Below, in pieces: positions 1 to 29,102 of a DNA stretch of 36,202 bases. Below the pieces are notes generated by a model. The model did no database searches and was not told the DNA's origin. It saw nothing but the letters and a program-made list of their open reading frames with translations. Made by a program: the position numbers and the translations under genes. Position 1 is the stretch's first letter, and each line of letters begins with the position of its first letter. The stretch comes from Anaerolineae bacterium (GTDB taxonomy: Bacteria > Chloroflexota > Anaerolineae > UBA4142 > SHND01): the NCBI GenBank assembly GCA_021463195.1, contig JAJTXZ010000050.1:1-36202 (forward strand), written 5' to 3'.

Positions 1-120
1 AAGCGCGGCAACCAGAACGCAAGTCTGCGGCGAATCAAGAATATTCGCAATCGCAGCCCAGCGGGAACGTCCGCAGGGACGTTTCGTGTATTTGTTGCGA
101 GCGAATTCGATTTGCCCGCA
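1..120 (+). repeat. Partial copy A of dispersed intergenic repeat
   Basis: This non-coding DNA is cut by the window edge. It aligns by eye over about 110 bp with 27367-27475 in the same orientation, and in two shorter blocks with the reverse complement of 17547-17640. Shared blocks include AGTCTGCGGCGAATCAAG, CGCAATCGCAGCCCAGCG and GCGAGCGAATTCGATT. It contains a short hairpin (AACGTCC at 66-72 with GGACGTT at 77-83, loop GCAG). The best copy (27294-27490) is a bounded insertion element, so this is probably the right part of a related element. No matching terminal repeat is clear at its right end. Confidence 0.7.
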
Positions 121-159
121 AACTGCCGACAAAGGACGAAATCCCAAATCTTTTGCGTC

Positions 160-17546: not shown

Positions 17547-17704
17547 GTCAAACTTTTGGGCGAATCGAATTCGCTCGCAACACATACACGAAACCGTCCC
17601 TACAGATGTTCTTGCAAGTCTGCCGCCGCAGACTTGCGTTCTTGGGGCGATGGGCTTTCGCACGCGAGCCTTTAACCGCTTGAGATGATTCGCAAAAGTT
17701 TGAC
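17547..17704. mobile_element. Degenerate MITE-like repeat, copy B
   Basis: This 158-bp piece fills most of the divergent spacer 17472-17800. It ends in inverted repeats: GTCAAACTTTTGGGCGAATC (17547-17566) and GATTCGCAAAAGTTTGAC (17687-17704), identical apart from a 2-base gap. Its reverse complement matches the element at 27294-27490 at both ends and copy A at 1-120. A perfect 10-bp hairpin, GCAAGTCTGC (17614-17623) with GCAGACTTGC (17628-17637), lies inside. No target duplication is visible, so it is an older or rearranged copy. The remaining spacer holds the two divergent promoters. Confidence 0.65.
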
Positions 17705-17728
17705 GCGCGCCTCCGACCAAATTTCCTG

Positions 17729-17757
17729 TTGACAGTCCTTCAAGCCGCGTGTACACT
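17729..17757 (+). promoter_or_regulatory. Promoter of the GAF-chain sensor kinase
   Basis: A perfect -35 TTGACA (17729-17734) and TACACT (17752-17757, 4 of 6) have the ideal 17-bp spacing. Transcription should start near 17764, 37 bases before the ATG at 17801. This argues against translation from the upstream in-frame TTG at 17729. Confidence 0.7.
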
Positions 17758-17800
17758 TTTGCCGCGTAGATTCCTGTCTCAAGATAAGCGAAAAAGATTT

Positions 17801-20800
17801 ATGAATAAAACGTTTGCCCGCCTGTATAAAAATCGGCGCGACAATTTACGGTTGCGTTGGATTGGATTGGCGTTAGTGTCCATCGCGTTGGTGATTGCCA
17901 GCTGGTTCGTCGCGTACGACCATTTCTCGATTGTCCAAATCGCCGCGCTGTTTGCGTTGGAACTGGGCGCGGTGTGGTTTGCGCTCCGCCGTTTACGCGC
18001 GCCGCGTGATTATGCGCGCGCCATCCTGATTTTGCGAATCCTTGGACATTTGCAAGTCATCGTGGAATTATTGCTGCTCACCTGGGCGGTGTACTATACG
18101 GGCGGCATTACGAGCCCCCTCATTCCGCTCTACTTTATTTATATTTTTGGCGATGGGCTAACCTCTTCAACGCCCACCTTGATTGCGCATGCGACGCTAG
18201 CGACGGCGTTATTTGTCGGCATGACTGTCGCGACGTATTACGGTTATCTCTCGCGCTACAACGCGTTCAATTTCGCCGAAACCGATTTTTGGCGTAATCA
18301 ACAATATGTGGATGGCGCGCTGATTGTTTTTGCGGCGCTGATGGCATTGACCACGATTGTGGCGATTGCGTTCAGTCGTCGCGCCGGCGAACGCGAACAG
18401 GCGTTGGGCGAAGCGGCGAAAAAATTATCCACTCGCGTCGAACAGGTCAATACGCTGCGCGACATCGGACAGCGGCTCGCGTCGTCATTGGATTTGCAGG
18501 CGGTGTTGGACGCGGTGTGCGCGAGCGCGCTGCGAATCGTCCAAGCCACTGACGCGCATATTTTCTTGTACGATGAGAATACGGAGCAATTTTCCAATGG
18601 CGTCGCGGTGTGGTCGGATGGACATCGCGGCACCGTGTTGACGGCGCCACGCAGCGAAGGCATATCGGCGCAGACGGCGCGCAGCAAAACGCCGCTGGTC
18701 ATTGATGACGCCGAAAACAGTCCGCTGTTTCAATCGCTGCAAGCGCGCGCTTGGGCGGTCAAGGCCATCGCGAGTTTTCCCATCATTAAATCCGAGCGCG
18801 TAATTGCGGTAATGAATGTGGCATCGCTCCAGCCGCATCAATTCACCAATGAGGAACAACAAGCGCTTCTCTTGTTGGCGGACCAAGCCGCGATAGCGAT
18901 TGACAACGCGGGGCTGTATCTTCAGGTACAGCGCAAGATTCAAGAGCTCTCGGCGCTGAATACGGTGACGCAATCGGCGGCGCAGTTGACGGATATTTCC
19001 GCGCTGTTGAATGACGCGCTCGACGCGATTTTGACCGCGATTCCAGCTGATGCGGTGTTAGTGTCCACGCACAATCAAGCCAAAGGCATGCTCGAGTTGG
19101 CGGCGCAACGCGGCTTGTCCGCGACGTCGGCGCAGGAATTCAAAATAAATCCGCTGCCGGTCAGCGCGGGCTTTGGCGGACAAGTGGTGCGCTCGGGACA
19201 GCCGTTGGCGATATATGACATGGCGTCCGACCCGCGTCGTTTTCGCTCGAGCAAGGTTGAACAATACGCGTCGTCCTACACGGTCCCGCTGCGCGCGTAC
19301 GATAGCGTGATTGGCGCGCTGCAACTGTTGTGGGCGCAGCCGCATCATGTTACGCCCAATGAAATTAGTTTGAGCGGCGCGATTGCCCCGCAGTTGGCGA
19401 TTGCGATGCACAACTCGAAATTATTTTTTGAAACCAAGCGCCGCGCCGAAGAATTGGCGACGCTGCGTTCGATTGGGTTGGCGACGACTTCGACGTTGAA
19501 TCTGCGCGAACAGCTGCGTTTGTTATATGAAAATGTGAATCAATTATTGCGCGCCGACACTTTTTTTGTCGGTTTGTATGACGAGACGCGCGACGAATTG
19601 CGCGTCGAGTATGTGGTGGAAGAGGGTTGGTTCTTGCGCCCGGTCCAAGTGCCGCTCGCGCAAGCGGGGCTGTCGGCGGTGGTGATTCGCAGTCAAAAGT
19701 CGCTGCTCTATGGCGATTTGCAAAATGAACCCAATTTATTGGCGCAGCCGCAGCATATTACGCGGCCCGCGCGCAGCTGGCTCGCCGTGCCGTTGATGCT
19801 CAAAGAACGCATCATCGGGTTGATTTCGGCGCAGAGTTTTCAGCCCAGCGCGTTCACGCCGGAGGATGAACGTTTTTTGTCGGCGGTGGCGCAACATGTG
19901 GCATTGGCGCTGGATAATGCGCGGTTGTTTGGCGAAGCGGAACGGCGCGCGCGCGAATTGACGCTCTTGAATGAAATTAGCCGCACGATTAGCGCGTCGC
20001 TGGATTTTGATGTGGTGGTGGAACGCGCGGCGCATGCCTTGTCAGATCAACTGGGTTATCGCTACGTTTCGATTTATGAATTTGAAGGCGAGCAGCTGCT
20101 TTGCCGCGCCAGCATTGGCGATCGCGACGCGGGCGCGACGTGGGATATTTCGCGCGGCGTGATTGGGCGTGTGGCGCGCACGGGGCGCGCGGCGTTCATC
20201 ACGAATGTAGCGGCGGACCCCGATTATGTGTTGGGTTATGAAGATGTCATCGCCGAGATTTGCGTGCCGATTGTGCGCGAGGGACGCGTCTTGGGCATTG
20301 TCAATGTCGAGGAATCGCGCCCCGGCGCGTTAAAAGAAGATGATCTCGCGTTGTTGACGCTGCTCGGCGAACAGTTGGCGATTGCGGCGACAAACGCGAC
20401 GTTATATCGCGAGGCGCTGAACCGCGAACGTTTTGCCACGCGGCTCGGTCAGTTGGGCATGACCGTGACCGCGACGTTGGAATTGGTGCCGCTGATTGAA
20501 ATTTTGTGCCGCGAATCGTTGACCTTGTTCGCGGTGGATACGGCGGCGATTTATATTCGCGAAACACGACACACACCAGCGAAAACCGAGCCGCTGGCTG
20601 CGCCGTCTGTAGACAATGGCTCGGCTTTGCAACCATTGGGAATGCGCGCGGAATTGGTATGTCGCGCGGCGGCGGGATTCGGGCGCAACGCGTTGTTGGG
20701 CAATACGGCAGACGCGGAACAGCTGGGCAATTTATTGGCGCGCACGATGCGGCTGGCGCGCGGTTTTATTATCCACGACGCGCGCGTATCGGGACAGTTG

Positions 20801-23278
20801 ACGCCTGAATTGCGCGCGCATCTGGACGCGGAAGCGTGCATGGTGGCGCCGATTATGAAAGAGCGCGATGTCATTGGCGTGTTGTTGTTAGCGGACCGTC
20901 AAAACCCGCAGCGTTTTGGCGAACCCGATTTGGCGCGCGCGGCGATTGTGGCATCGCAAGCGGGTCTCGTGATTTCTAACGCGCGGCTCTATTTTGAAGC
21001 GCAGCGTCGCGCCAAAGAACAAAGCAGTTTGTACGAAATTGGGCTGGCGGTTAACTCGACCTTGGATTTGCAAGAACAATTAGGCATTATTTACGCGCAA
21101 ATCGCAAAACATTACACGCTCACCGGTTTCAGCGTGGCGTTGTGCGATGAGCCGGATGCGCTGCATTTTGTCATGTTTGTTGATCAAGGCAAGCCGCTCG
21201 AACCGTTCACGCGTCCGATGGCCCAAGCCGGGCTGGCGGGATGGATTGTCAAACAGCGTCGTCCGTTGGTGATTGACGACATTCAACGCCAATGGGATAG
21301 TTTGCCAACGCCGCCGGGCGAATATGGCGCGCCGCAAGAGACGGCTTCGTACATTGGCATTCCGTTGATGATCAAAGCGGAGGCGATTGGCGTGATGGCG
21401 TTGCAGCGCGCGCCCGTAGAGCCATTTACGGCGGATGAGCAGCGCTTTTTATTGGCGTTGGCGCAGCAAATCGCGTTCGCGGTTGATAATGCGCGTTTGC
21501 ATCAACAAGTGCAGCGCACGGCAAATCAACAATCGCTGCTGTATCACGCGAGCCGCCGCATCGCGGGCGCGTTGAATTTGGACACGCTGCTGCAAGGAAT
21601 TGTGGATGCGCTGAGTCAAGATTTTGGTTTTCGCGCGGTGATGACGCTGTTGCGCGATCCCAATCTCGATGAATTAATTCCGGCGGCGGGTTCGGCGGAT
21701 GTGGCGAAATTTGTGTCGCCCGCGTATCGGTTAAAAATGGGCAAAGGTTTGATTGGCACGGCGGCGCAAACGGGTCAAACGCAGTTGACAGACCAAGTAT
21801 TGGAAACGCAGCGTTTTTATGCTTCAACCGAACGAGAACCGCACGCAGGCGTGGCGGCGCCAATTAAATCGGGCGAGCGCGTGATTGGCGTGTTGAATGT
21901 CGAAAGTCCGCAGCGTGGCGCGTTTGCCGCGGACGATGTGCGGATGTTCGAGGCGATTTCCGACCAACTCGCCGTCGCCATCGAAAACGCGAAATTGTTT
22001 GCGAGCGCGCAAGAACGGTTGGCGCGCATCAACGCGCTGCAAATGATCGAAGTCTCCATCCTTTCAACGATGAATTTGAACGACCGCCTGGATTTGATTT
22101 TGGAACATGCGTTGACGCAAATGCGCGCGGATGTGGGCGTCGTCTTTATGCGCGATATGTCGTCACGTGAATTGTATGGCGCGCGACAACGCGGGACGCG
22201 CGATCTGGGCGCGTTTCGCGAATTGCGGATCAAATCCGGCGAAGGCGCGGTCGGCTGGGTCTTTGCGCATGGCGAACCGCTATACATTCCAGATGTGCAG
22301 GCGGATGCGCGTTGGTCGAATGCGCCCTCATCGCAACAGGAAGAGTTGATTTCCTTTTTGGGCGCGCCGCTCAAGGTTGAAGAGCGCACGATTGGCGTGT
22401 TGATTGTTTCGACGCGACAGCCGCGTTTGTTTACCGAAGAAGAAATCAATTTTTTCTACACGCTCACCAGTCACGCGGCGGTGGTGATTGAAAATTCACG
22501 TTTGTATGACCAAACGCGCACACAGTTGGAACAGCTGCGCGCGACCCAAGACCGTCTCATCGAAACCGAACGTCGCGCGGCGATTGGGGAATTGGTGGCG
22601 GGACTGGCGCACGAAATTAACAATCCGTTGACCGCCATCATGGGACATTCGCAGCTGCTGCAAGAGGCGATGACAGAAGACAATTCTAATGCCGAATGGA
22701 ACGCCGAATTGGATACGATTAGCGGCGCCGCGCAGCGCATCGCGCGCATTGTTCAAGAGTTTATTCGGCTGTCGCATGTCGAAGGCGGACATACGGACAA
22801 GATGGATTTGAACGAAGCGGTTCGCAATGCGATGCGCAAATTTGAATTGCGCCAAGATGCGCGCGCGGTCACATTGAACGAAACGCTGCCGGCAGAGCCG
22901 ATTCTAGCGCTGGCGAATTTGCAGTTAATTGACCAGATGTTGGGAGAAATTTTTATGAATGCGCTAGAAGCGATGCCACACGGCGGACGCATTGATGTGA
23001 CGGTGGGACGCTTGGATGACGCGATGGTCTATTGCGCGATTCGCGACAGCGGCTATGGCGTGCCGACGGGCGATTTGAAACGCGTCTTTGAACCCGGCTA
23101 TACGACTAAAATCGAAGGCGGCGTGGTGCGCGGCATCGGTTTGGGTCTATATACCGCCGAGCGCATTGTCAAAAGTCATGGCGGCGCGATTTGGTTAGAA
23201 AGCGAGGAAGGCAAATACACTCAAGTAACGTTTACGTTACCGCGTCAAACGCCGGGAGCGCGCGCTGATGGCCAATGA
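17801..23278 (+). CDS. Membrane sensor histidine kinase with eight tandem GAF domains
   Basis: A very large sensor kinase of 1825 residues. About six membrane helices occupy roughly residues 18-200. A short coiled linker then leads to eight consecutive GAF domains beginning near residues 217, 385, 554, 722, 882, 1077, 1247 and 1413. Each is introduced by the same helix pattern, as in LRDIGQRLASSLDLQAV, LRSIGLATTSTLNL and LYEIGLAVNSTLDL. A HisKA domain carries the phosphoacceptor H1604 (GLAHEINNPLTAIMG). A complete HATPase domain follows (N box LGEIFMNALEAMP, DSGYGVP, GIGLGLYTAERIV). GAF domains bind small ligands or mediate dimer contacts; no chromophore cysteine or haem motif was recognised. 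It ends 11 bases inside the next gene, a REC-containing kinase and the obvious phosphotransfer partner. The start at 17801 is preferred over TTG 17729, which overlaps the promoter. Confidence 0.9.
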   Translation: MNKTFARLYKNRRDNLRLRWIGLALVSIALVIASWFVAYDHFSIVQIAALFALELGAVWFALRRLRAPRDYARAILILRILGHLQVIVELLLLTWAVYYTGGITSPLIPLYFIYIFGDGLTSSTPTLIAHATLATALFVGMTVATYYGYLSRYNAFNFAETDFWRNQQYVDGALIVFAALMALTTIVAIAFSRRAGEREQALGEAAKKLSTRVEQVNTLRDIGQRLASSLDLQAVLDAVCASALRIVQATDAHIFLYDENTEQFSNGVAVWSDGHRGTVLTAPRSEGISAQTARSKTPLVIDDAENSPLFQSLQARAWAVKAIASFPIIKSERVIAVMNVASLQPHQFTNEEQQALLLLADQAAIAIDNAGLYLQVQRKIQELSALNTVTQSAAQLTDISALLNDALDAILTAIPADAVLVSTHNQAKGMLELAAQRGLSATSAQEFKINPLPVSAGFGGQVVRSGQPLAIYDMASDPRRFRSSKVEQYASSYTVPLRAYDSVIGALQLLWAQPHHVTPNEISLSGAIAPQLAIAMHNSKLFFETKRRAEELATLRSIGLATTSTLNLREQLRLLYENVNQLLRADTFFVGLYDETRDELRVEYVVEEGWFLRPVQVPLAQAGLSAVVIRSQKSLLYGDLQNEPNLLAQPQHITRPARSWLAVPLMLKERIIGLISAQSFQPSAFTPEDERFLSAVAQHVALALDNARLFGEAERRARELTLLNEISRTISASLDFDVVVERAAHALSDQLGYRYVSIYEFEGEQLLCRASIGDRDAGATWDISRGVIGRVARTGRAAFITNVAADPDYVLGYEDVIAEICVPIVREGRVLGIVNVEESRPGALKEDDLALLTLLGEQLAIAATNATLYREALNRERFATRLGQLGMTVTATLELVPLIEILCRESLTLFAVDTAAIYIRETRHTPAKTEPLAAPSVDNGSALQPLGMRAELVCRAAAGFGRNALLGNTADAEQLGNLLARTMRLARGFIIHDARVSGQLTPELRAHLDAEACMVAPIMKERDVIGVLLLADRQNPQRFGEPDLARAAIVASQAGLVISNARLYFEAQRRAKEQSSLYEIGLAVNSTLDLQEQLGIIYAQIAKHYTLTGFSVALCDEPDALHFVMFVDQGKPLEPFTRPMAQAGLAGWIVKQRRPLVIDDIQRQWDSLPTPPGEYGAPQETASYIGIPLMIKAEAIGVMALQRAPVEPFTADEQRFLLALAQQIAFAVDNARLHQQVQRTANQQSLLYHASRRIAGALNLDTLLQGIVDALSQDFGFRAVMTLLRDPNLDELIPAAGSADVAKFVSPAYRLKMGKGLIGTAAQTGQTQLTDQVLETQRFYASTEREPHAGVAAPIKSGERVIGVLNVESPQRGAFAADDVRMFEAISDQLAVAIENAKLFASAQERLARINALQMIEVSILSTMNLNDRLDLILEHALTQMRADVGVVFMRDMSSRELYGARQRGTRDLGAFRELRIKSGEGAVGWVFAHGEPLYIPDVQADARWSNAPSSQQEELISFLGAPLKVEERTIGVLIVSTRQPRLFTEEEINFFYTLTSHAAVVIENSRLYDQTRTQLEQLRATQDRLIETERRAAIGELVAGLAHEINNPLTAIMGHSQLLQEAMTEDNSNAEWNAELDTISGAAQRIARIVQEFIRLSHVEGGHTDKMDLNEAVRNAMRKFELRQDARAVTLNETLPAEPILALANLQLIDQMLGEIFMNALEAMPHGGRIDVTVGRLDDAMVYCAIRDSGYGVPTGDLKRVFEPGYTTKIEGGVVRGIGLGLYTAERIVKSHGGAIWLESEEGKYTQVTFTLPRQTPGARADGQ

Positions 23279-26327: not shown

Positions 26328-27233
26328 TCAATACCAATAAAACGTCCACGCTTCGCTCGGCACGCTCAAACTTTGATAGGGCGCGTCGCACGTTGCCGGC
26401 GCGACTTGGGTGGAACGCACCACGTTCACGCGCCAGAGAAACGAACGCACGTTGGGCGACGTCTCGTCAAATAAATCGCGCGGAAATTCGAGCGCGCTCG
26501 CTTTGGTGAACGCGCACCAACTCACCGGCTGCCCCATGCGGTCCAAATAATCCACTTGCACGCGATACCATTCTTGCATGCCAATCGGCTGCGCCGGTTG
26601 AAACTTCAAAGTGATGCGTTTGTTGGCGCCTTGCACGCGCTCGCCATCTGTCGGCGCGACCAGTTCGGGTGGCGGCGCCGGGATCGGCGTGGGAATCGCG
26701 GTAAAAGTCGCGGTGGGCAGCGGCAGTCCGCTAATTTGCGTGAGCGTAGGCGTAACCGTCGGCGAAGCGGCGGGAGTGTCGGTAGCGCGCGGCGTGACGG
26801 TGGCGACATGCGCTTGCGTTGGCGGCGCGAGCGTCGCCGTCGCGGGACGCGGCGTTGCCGTGATAATAACCGTAATGGGGCGCAGCGTCGCGCTCGCCGT
26901 CGGCGTTGCCGCCAGCGCAATGACACGCAGCGGGTCAAAACCATTTAGCGACGCGCCAAAAAAATCCGCGCCGACAGTCGCAAAGAAAATGATCGCCGCG
27001 CACAGCGCCGCCCCAAGCAGCGCGAGCGCGTACCAGCGTTTCCAATAAAACGCGCGCGGATTATGTTGGCAGTTTGGACACACCGCCGCTGAAGCGGGAA
27101 TGCGCCGCGCGCAATAATTGCATCGAATACGAGGGGTATGCGTCACGTTTCCATATCCGCAAGCGGGACATTTCAAATCGTCCACGCTCATTCGCTTGCC
27201 GCAATCGGGACAGCGAATCGAAAAATCAGCCAC
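26328..27233 (-). CDS. Zinc-ribbon membrane protein with Thr/Pro linker
   Basis: About 301 residues, function unknown. Two zinc ribbons open the protein (CPDCG...CPACG and CNYC...CPNC), then one membrane helix (WYALALLGAALCAAIIFFATVGA). About 90 residues of Thr/Pro/Ala linker follow, then an outer domain with PPELVAPTDGERVQG, WYRVQVDYLD and FLWRVNVVRS, an Ig/FN3-like pattern ending in WTFYWY. The ribbons would be cytosolic. The start is uncertain: GTG at 27233 gives VADFSIRCPDCG, typical for such proteins, while TTG at 27269 would add 12 residues. Neither has a good ribosome site. The MITE at 27294-27490 has inserted 60 bases upstream of the chosen start, between this gene and the hydrolase gene that would precede it on the same transcript. 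Confidence 0.78.
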   Translation of the reverse strand: MADFSIRCPDCGKRMSVDDLKCPACGYGNVTHTPRIRCNYCARRIPASAAVCPNCQHNPRAFYWKRWYALALLGAALCAAIIFFATVGADFFGASLNGFDPLRVIALAATPTASATLRPITVIITATPRPATATLAPPTQAHVATVTPRATDTPAASPTVTPTLTQISGLPLPTATFTAIPTPIPAPPPELVAPTDGERVQGANKRITLKFQPAQPIGMQEWYRVQVDYLDRMGQPVSWCAFTKASALEFPRDLFDETSPNVRSFLWRVNVVRSTQVAPATCDAPYQSLSVPSEAWTFYWY

Positions 27234-27293
27234 GCAAACGATTGTAATCGCAATGCGTTCGCGCAACAAACCTGCTTGGCTAGATAGCCAGAT

Positions 27294-27490
27294 GGGTGTG
27301 CGTCAAAATTTCGGAAATCACCTCAGACGCTTAAAAGATCGCGTGCAATAAAGTTTATCGCTTCAACAAGAACATAGTCTGCGACGAATCAAGCGCATTC
27401 GCAATCGCAGCCCAGCGCGAACGCCCGCAGGAACGTTTCGCGTATTTGTTGCAAGCGAATTCGATTCGCCCAAAAGCGCGGCGCACACCC
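27294..27490. mobile_element. MITE-like element, copy C, with 9-bp TIRs and 9-bp target duplication
   Basis: A 197-bp insertion. It begins GGGTGTGCG (27294-27302) and ends CGCACACCC (27482-27490), a perfect 9-bp terminal inverted repeat. The sequence TAGCCAGAT is duplicated exactly on both sides (27285-27293 and 27491-27499), the signature of transposition. It has no transposase gene. Its interior matches copy A (1-120) closely and copy B (17547-17704) at both ends. The left target copy is also part of a small palindrome, TGGCTA-GA-TAGCCA (27277-27290). Nine-base duplications are made by several DDE transposase families; the parent element is not in this window. Confidence 0.85.
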
Positions 27491-29007
27491 TAGCCAGATT
27501 GTTCCGGCGCAAAGTATGTCAAGCGACACATTTGCAGTTGCGGCGGCATCGTTGGCGCCAGCGTAATAAAAACTTCCAACGCGCCGCGTTCGCATTCAAT
27601 GCGCCAGGCGCCGCGCAACGCGTTATAGGCATGCAGCGCGCCGACGGATAGAAACGCGCCCGCCTCGGCGCAAAGTTTTGCCCGTTCCGCGCGCCGATGC
27701 GCCGCATCCCGATCCAAATAAAAATTTGACGCGACGCGCGCGGCGAGCTCCGACTCGTCGCCGGTCTCGAGCCAATGCTGCGTCACGCGAACCAGCTCCG
27801 CCAAAAACGGCGCGGGCTGCGGCGCGCGCGGGACTAGCGCGCCCGTGCGCGCGAGCGCGTCAAGAATCTTTGGAAAGACTAGCGCGACGCGCCCGTAGGT
27901 TTTATTGCTCAACGCCACAATCCCGACGCCATGCTCGGGCAGCAGATAAAAATAACTGCCATAGCCCGGCAAGCCGCCGCCATGCGCCACACCATAACCA
28001 AAACGGTCATCCTGCCACACCGCTAAACCAAACCCATAACCGGTTGCCGCGCGCCATACAGTCTCGGCATTCGCCGCGCGCGTCACCATTTCTTCAAAAC
28101 GGGCCATTTGCTGCATCGCGCGCGCGGTGGCGCGCGCGACGGGACCGCGTTCGCGTTCATCGCGCGGCGGAAAGGCATCCAGCAAAAATGTCATATAGCG
28201 CGCGAAATCTGGCGCCGTCGTAAACAAGCCCGCCATGCCCGCGAACGCGCCATCCGCCAAAATCGGTTCGCGTTTCCAAGTTTCATCTTCGTGGCGATAG
28301 CCGTGCGCGAAATGTTTCGGCGGCACGCGCGTTTTATCCCACATCGTCCGCCGCATTTTCAACGGGCGCAAAATTTCGCGCGTAATGTATTGTTGAAAAG
28401 GCATGCGCGCGACACGCGTAATGAGACGCGCGAGCAGCGCGTACGCGTAATTGGAATATTCGAATTTTAGACCGGGCGCATTGGAAAAGGGAATGCCTGC
28501 GCGCAGCCATGCGGTAAATTCGCGTTCCGTGATTGCCATTTGACGGTCGCCCCACGGATTGTCTTCGGGAAAACCGGGCGACATGGTTAACAAATCGCGC
28601 AGCGTGATGATGGCGGAATCGCGCGTCGGATACGCGAGCGTTTTTAATTCGGGCAAATATTTTTCCGCCGCGTCATCCAAGCGCACTTTATTTTCGTCGC
28701 GCAATTTTAAAAGCGCCATCGCGACAAAACTTTTGGTCATGGACGCGATCCGAAATACCGTGTCCAGCGTGACCGGCGCGCCCGTTTCTATTTCGCGCAC
28801 ACCGAACGCATCGGCATACGCCAATTCACCATCTACTACAATGCCAAACACGAGACCCGGCACATTCGTCGTCTCGGCAAATTCGCGGAAATGTTCGCGA
28901 ATTTCCGGAAAGGCGGCGCTGATTTTTTCGCGTCGTCGCGCCGATATAAACCGCGGCGGCGGCGCCGTCAATTCACTTGATTTTACGCGCAGCGGGCGAG
29001 CAGTCAC
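27490..29007 (-). CDS. Serine hydrolase of the class C beta-lactamase / DD-peptidase fold
   Basis: A 505-residue protein. Active-site motifs are complete: SMTK at 89-92 (nucleophile Ser and general-base Lys), YSN at 184-186 and HGGG in the third-motif position. Such proteins include esterases, D-aminopeptidases and beta-lactamases; the lack of a signal peptide makes a cytosolic esterase or peptidase more likely than antibiotic resistance. About 110 C-terminal residues form an extra domain. The start is a GTG at 29007 with GGAGG seven bases upstream (complement of 29015-29019), clearly better than the longer open frame. It follows rseP on the same strand, past a terminator. Its TAG stop spans the junction with the MITE: two bases come from the target duplication and one from the element. 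Confidence 0.87.
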   Translation of the reverse strand: MTARPLRVKSSELTAPPPRFISARRREKISAAFPEIREHFREFAETTNVPGLVFGIVVDGELAYADAFGVREIETGAPVTLDTVFRIASMTKSFVAMALLKLRDENKVRLDDAAEKYLPELKTLAYPTRDSAIITLRDLLTMSPGFPEDNPWGDRQMAITEREFTAWLRAGIPFSNAPGLKFEYSNYAYALLARLITRVARMPFQQYITREILRPLKMRRTMWDKTRVPPKHFAHGYRHEDETWKREPILADGAFAGMAGLFTTAPDFARYMTFLLDAFPPRDERERGPVARATARAMQQMARFEEMVTRAANAETVWRAATGYGFGLAVWQDDRFGYGVAHGGGLPGYGSYFYLLPEHGVGIVALSNKTYGRVALVFPKILDALARTGALVPRAPQPAPFLAELVRVTQHWLETGDESELAARVASNFYLDRDAAHRRAERAKLCAEAGAFLSVGALHAYNALRGAWRIECERGALEVFITLAPTMPPQLQMCRLTYFAPEQSG

Positions 29008-29033
29008 AGAGATTCCTCCAATGCGTGTTTTGA

Positions 29034-29070
29034 AATAAAAAAACGATTCGACATTCGCGTCAAATCGTTT
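29034..29070 (-). terminator. Rho-independent terminator after rseP
   Basis: On the - strand, AAACGATT (29070-29063) pairs with AATCGTTT (29048-29041) around a 14-nt loop, followed by a T-rich run to 29034. It lies about 33 bases past the rseP stop and just before the hydrolase ribosome site. Confidence 0.8.
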
Positions 29071-29102
29071 ATACCACATATTTGGTCAGACGCGCGCTGG
29101 CG

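Follow-up and report, generated by a model that had tools for sequence, protein, structure and literature searches.

A probable MITE with ISKra4-family ends and a two-hairpin repeat as its interior, from a family spaced to promoters, in an Anaerolineae draft genome

Background

Insertion sequences (IS) of the ISKra4/p-MULT superfamily generate target duplications of 8 or 9 bp, and several ISKra4-group elements insert 13-17 bp from sigmaA promoters (Guerillot et al., PMC3942029). Bacterial MITEs, among them Nezha, MITEAba12, Chunjie and QMITE, are short, non-coding and present in many copies, carry terminal inverted repeats and target duplications, and are presumed to be mobilised in trans (PMC10969869). 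REP sequences can lie inside such elements, the precedent being QMITE2 of Coxiella, whose core contains a GTAG REP (PMC10969869). A 197-bp element between two genes of an Anaerolineae genome was compared with these systems. The stretch of DNA analysed (the window, 36,202 nucleotides) makes up all of contig C90 in a draft genome of 4.72 Mb (98% complete, 143 contigs).

Results

Geometry of the element

Exact inverted ends of 9 bp, GGGTGTGCG at 27294-27302 and CGCACACCC at 27482-27490, were read from the window sequence, with a direct repeat of 9 bp immediately outside them on both sides. When the whole window was scanned for exact 9-bp inverted repeats (span 60-400 bp) flanked by exact 9-bp direct repeats, this element was the sole place returned, and the same geometry was found in 0 of 30 shuffled windows. 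In the family to which the element belongs the terminal repeat is about 21 bp long (GGGTGTGCGTCANNNTTTTGG) rather than 9 bp, and the right repeat of the window copy is imperfect past its ninth base pair. No transposase is present within the 197 bp. The main features are:

27294-27490, unstranded: MITE (type A), 197 bp, non-coding, assigned from its geometry, the family copies and the empty site in five congeners
27285-27293, unstranded: target site duplication, left copy, TAGCCAGAT
27491-27499, unstranded: target site duplication, right copy, TAGCCAGAT
27294-27314, plus strand: left terminal inverted repeat, GGGTGTGCGTCAAAATTTCGG (21-bp family consensus as given above)
27470-27490, minus strand: right terminal inverted repeat, GGGTGTGCGCCGCGCTTTTGG in minus-strand reading, partly decayed

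At 27270-27293, TTGGCTAGA precedes the left duplication, giving an inverted repeat, TGGCTA-GA-TAGCCA, beside the insertion.

Flanking genes, empty site and age

Both flanking genes lie on the minus strand, a beta-lactamase-family hydrolase at 27490-29079 (PF00144) and a zinc-ribbon gene at 26328-27269. They are direct neighbours, with no insert, in all five congeners. The stop codon of the hydrolase is made by the junction:

27490-27492, minus strand: hydrolase stop codon TAG, with TA from the duplication and the first G from the MITE end

Removal of the element in silico lengthened the hydrolase frame by about 35 codons, into the zinc-ribbon gene; the congener hydrolases, 62-74% identical to that of the window, end near the position of the present junction stop. 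An older stop may have been lost either before or after the insertion. The zinc-ribbon gene has a likely GTG start at 7 nt past its -10 box (window 27231-27246), likewise in the congeners G001 and G002, and this short distance, common to all three genomes, suggests a leaderless mRNA.

The original prediction, made from the letters of the window, had described a MITE with perfect 9-bp inverted ends between identical 9-bp flanks, carrying no transposase and separating two minus-strand genes that had probably once been adjacent, and had proposed comparison with an empty site in relatives. Each of these points was borne out, the uninterrupted site being present in the five congeners. It had also called the insertion recent, which the comparisons do not establish: an intact duplication stands beside about 20% divergence of the copy from the closest full-length paralogue (79% identity to the best near-full-length one in its own genome, 87-88% across the better preserved part). 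Since the copy is diverged, its right repeat decayed and the congeners distant, the insertion can be dated from these comparisons only to some time since the lineage parted from its nearest sampled congener.

Copies and target duplications of the family

Searching the window's own genome with the window element gave 45 full or partial matches, and searching with a consensus-like copy gave 43, with a typical length of 178 bp, so that about 40 full or partial matches are present. Copies with the same ends elsewhere in that genome include one on contig C88 with the exact duplication CGCAACCGC, one on C120 whose duplication has one mismatch, and one on C111 with GTCGCTAG, an exact duplication of 8 bp. 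The window copy is among the more diverged members, and two further copies lie on the same contig:

1-123, minus strand: second copy of the same interior, cut off at the contig edge, 97% identical to the consensus-like query
17553-17706, unstranded: third copy, degenerate, directly upstream of a large GAF kinase gene

The gene downstream of the third copy (17729-23278) encodes a GAF-domain sensor kinase of 1849 aa. Contigs C62, C102 and C7 of the same genome also end within copies, and these repeats therefore break the assembly. On C111 (L010, 88623-88890) a different palindromic repeat (TAGAGTGAATTCC...AGACCTTTCGGGTTTTCGGAAAC...GGCTCTA) splits a type-A MITE, and palindromes like it, of the form AGACC..GGTCT, are present at further sites of this genome.

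Outside this genome, the congener G001 has 57 occurrences of the 12-bp end GGGTGTGCGTCA and G012, a genome of the same order, has 37, against 0-3 for a reversed control pattern. Nearly all the matches listed for the longer, 21-bp consensus pattern lie in Chloroflexota drafts, many of which belong to the Anaerolineales.

Paired ends were counted across the sequence gathered from the own genome and its relatives, which gave 67 distinct elements. Exact duplications flank many of them (9 bp in 27, 8 bp in four and 7 bp in two), and the 27 words of 9 bp are all different; with flanks re-paired at random, 0.46 exact 9-bp matches would be expected. The original prediction had proposed, as a check on the MITE reading, a search for more copies that share these ends but have other 9-bp duplications; such copies occur both in the own genome and in relatives.

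A complete insertion sequence with the same ends

A complete IS of 1688 bp was found in a genome of the same order (G019:C11:4319-6006), with ends GGGTGTGCGTCAAAGTTTTGG and a 9-bp duplication, ATCCCAGGA. The larger reading frame of its transposase alone scored 206.3 bits against the ISKra4 model of NCBIfam (NF033572, cut-off 205). In a second IS (G008:C103) the transposase is 56% identical to the first and the ends are related (GAGTGCGCGTCAAAGTTTTGC), and there is no clear duplication. In the G019 IS a TTTTTC run marks the place where the two overlapping frames of the transposase meet; the G008 IS is built alike at the corresponding position, which points to programmed -1 frameshifting. A TnpB gene (RNA-guided nuclease family, NF040570; L114, 304-1449, on G019:C11) adjoins the complete IS.

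The window's family and the G019 IS share their ends and the length of their duplication; on these grounds an ISKra4-type transposase, acting in trans, is the probable mover of the element. The 9-bp, in some copies 8-bp, duplications and the ends of about 21 bp also fall within the ISKra4 description of 8- or 9-bp duplications and inverted repeats of 18-39 bp. A partner able to encode the transposase is thus known from the same order, as the original prediction had anticipated in asking for a full-length transposon with these terminal repeats. In the own genome, protein search and family-model search of the 98%-complete draft (143 contigs) returned no ISKra4 transposase; repeated IS copies can be lost from a draft assembly of this kind. 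That the interior is a remnant left by internal deletion of the IS was ruled out, the part in common being the ends of about 21 bp only.

Spacing to promoters

Promoters of sigma70 type cluster outward of the ends; their -35 boxes most often begin 15-16 bp beyond the junction, with a peak at 16 bp. Promoters were scored to a maximum of 12, with a cut-off of at least 8, for a -35 box at 14-17 bp outside an end. By this measure 53 of 134 ends passed, against 5-7 at each of four control distances. At least one end had such a promoter in 49 of the 67 elements, about seven times the level at control distances, and in 45 of them this was so on one side only; the 49 include 20 of the 27 elements with an exact 9-bp duplication. 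The count of which end faces the promoter (21 against 12, by eye) is too weak to claim an orientation preference. The complete IS of G019 has TTGCTT-17-TATACT at 16 bp, the same spacing as the family. The family's preferred target has a -35 box of sigma70 type 14-17 bp downstream of it, so that most copies lie just before promoters.

The window copy is an exception, its two ends scoring 5 and 4 with no good promoter at 14-17 bp. The nearest candidate is 8 bp more distant than is usual for the family:

27241-27269, minus strand: promoter-like TTGTTG-17-TACAAT before the zinc-ribbon gene, with the -35 box 24 bp outside the MITE end

At the orthologous place G001 and G002 have TTG...-17-TAAAAT, like the zinc-ribbon promoter of the window.

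The interior as a separate repeat

The same ends enclose differing interiors, most of them strongly self-complementary: their folding reached a median z of -3.8 against mononucleotide shuffles, compared with -0.4 in the flanks. In single-strand folding the window copy does not stand out (z -1.8 and -1.9), as its decayed outer hairpin would lead one to expect. Across the window's genus, and in several relatives, two inverted units form the interior as a dimer; each unit, or module, is made of a hairpin GCGNNT...ANNCGC, a conserved linker near GCAACAANNACNCGA and a hairpin of seven pairs. The modules of the window copy are:

27420-27469, minus strand: interior module 1, which matches the two-hairpin module of the family
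27455-27469, 27438-27454 and 27420-27437: parts of module 1, namely a hairpin (GCGAATTCGATTCGC), the linker and a hairpin (AACGCCCGCAGGAACGTT)
27332-27410, plus strand: interior module 2, in the opposite orientation to module 1, placed by comparison with the intact copies on C88 and C120
27332-27364 (approximately) and 27379-27410: parts of module 2, namely a degenerate outer hairpin and, after a linker, the inner hairpin (CTGCG...CGCAG)

Modules were selected by the 3' arm of the first hairpin and the linker alone (n=99). A perfect second hairpin of seven pairs was present in 57, against 7.6 when the 3' halves were re-dealt, with 13 different stems; the stems covary across species. No G-U pairs occurred in a hand-picked alignment of well-paired modules, which is a mere hint of upkeep of the palindrome at the DNA level.

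A covariance model of the module found it in 27 of 201 Chloroflexota genomes, where the dimer often stands without type-A ends. In one congener (L365, G002:C21:44744-45207) four dimers follow each other in tandem with a period of about 119 bp. The own genome has the dimer in three settings: bare (C85), between type-A ends and between a second, different set of MITE ends (GGGTGTAGTTCACATTG...; GGGCGCATTTCACTTTGG...). The interior is therefore read as a repeat in its own right, which at least two families of MITE ends have enclosed in this genome. For the second end set, 10 module-bearing ends were listed in the own genome, and 7 of these lie 14-16 bp from a promoter. Three findings go beyond the original prediction: the family keeps a set distance to promoters, its two-hairpin interior also occurs free, and a second end family has the same interior and similar targeting.

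No match to the interior was found in Rfam, and its exact motif strings were not found in open papers. A GTAG motif is present in several relatives (e.g. L098, L185 and L395), the own genome having mostly GTTG. A search of the own genome found no RAYT gene flanked by the interior hairpins, and its four Y1 loci had no module in the stretches read. At one site (C66:262-693, L359) a Y1 (IS200-type) transposase gene directly precedes a large gene of ATP-dependent helicase or restriction-like type.

Discussion

We consider it highly probable that the element is a MITE with ISKra4-family ends, moved in trans, promoter-preferring, and with an independent two-hairpin dimer inside. The two ends of about 21 bp would be those of an IS of the ISKra4 family (Mutator-like DDE); a transposase of this type would act on them in trans, insert the element and duplicate 9 bp of the target. 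Insertion would be preferred where a -35 box of sigma70 type begins 14-17 bp away, which would bring copies to the front of promoters, and the module dimer, free elsewhere in Chloroflexota, would have been enclosed by at least two sets of MITE ends. We infer the activity of the transposase in this genome and the way in which the interior became enclosed. Against this explanation stand the lack of an ISKra4 transposase match in the own genome, the off-distance position of the window copy, at 24 bp, and the marks of the two IS, which point to different subgroups of the family. The reading of the locus as a product of MITE transposition, put forward in the original prediction, is nevertheless supported by the ends, the duplications, the family, the empty site and the IS partner alike, with mobilisation itself a deduction from the common ends and duplication length.

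The repeats could in principle have arisen by chance, the 9-bp arms being short, yet their uniqueness in the window, the shuffled windows and a large family with independent duplications refute this, and we give it next to no weight. A different origin would be a palindrome of REP/BIME type that a single-strand transposase (Y1, RAYT-type) disperses, with the MITE ends and duplications incidental to it. The interior dimer is indeed found without these ends in many Chloroflexota genomes, and its linker often has GTAG inside the outer hairpins, like tail-tail GTAG REP dimers (PMC3733652). The own genome also has Y1 transposase genes, but the loci examined have no module nearby, and differing interiors between the same ends mean that the ends, not the interior, define the unit. 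Exact 9-bp duplications also flank 27 of the 67 elements, and Y1 transposition is not known to produce duplications of 9 bp. As an origin of the ends this is in effect refuted by the duplications and the end-defined unit, and as a whole we hold it to be very improbable.

Duplications of 9 bp are not specific to ISKra4, and since several families share this length another DDE family (IS1, IS4/IS50, IS256 or IS903-like) might have been the mover. The complete transposons found with these ends encode only ISKra4-family transposases, however, and the promoter spacing fits ISKra4, so that we regard a mover from another family as hardly probable. Compatible with a MITE, and in our estimate unlikely, is an interior kept as a selected RNA or DNA regulatory element (e.g. 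an attenuator or terminator cassette) of use upstream of promoters. Folding far above that of shuffled sequence, stem covariation across species and the position of copies directly upstream of promoters speak for such selection. Against it, Rfam gave no match, inter-arm copying or transposon biology can keep palindromes without host selection, the missing G-U pairs of the hand-picked alignment are atypical of selection at the RNA level, and the congeners have no insert at the orthologous site. Returning to the MITE reading, we propose tentatively, and at somewhat less than even odds, that two MITE families with different ends, both moved by ISKra4-type transposases that target promoters, serve as interchangeable carriers that plant the independent hairpin dimer at a fixed distance upstream of -35 boxes genome-wide.

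MITEs at a fixed promoter spacing would show that the target choice of ISKra4 type is set by the ends alone and works in trans; targeting by ends only would make it possible to test directly, on a very small substrate, whether the transposase contacts RNA polymerase as has been proposed. One hairpin-dimer repeat in two end families would also be a route for REP-like palindromes to travel and end up before promoters.

Among known systems, the ISKra4 family (p-MULT 4, with the ISAzba1, ISMich2 and ISKra4 groups; PMC3942029) resembles the element in the ends of the relative's IS, the 8-9-bp duplications, the fixed promoter distance and its occurrence in Chloroflexi. It differs in that the MITE has no transposase and an unrelated interior, only the ends of about 21 bp being common. 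The apparent -1 frameshift of both IS is a published mark of ISMich2, and the promoter spacing of the G019 IS one of the ISKra4 group (PMC3942029). With the bacterial MITEs named at the outset the element shares size, lack of coding sequence, terminal repeats, target duplications, copy number and presumed mobilisation in trans (PMC10969869), and it differs from them in having one interior between different end families; the open papers searched contained no description of MITEs at a fixed promoter spacing. The GTAG REP dimers (PMC3733652) show a resemblance, clear in some relatives, in their hairpins with a GTAG-type tail in an inverted dimer, whereas here there are two covarying hairpins per half, the assignment to REP being one of motif resemblance.
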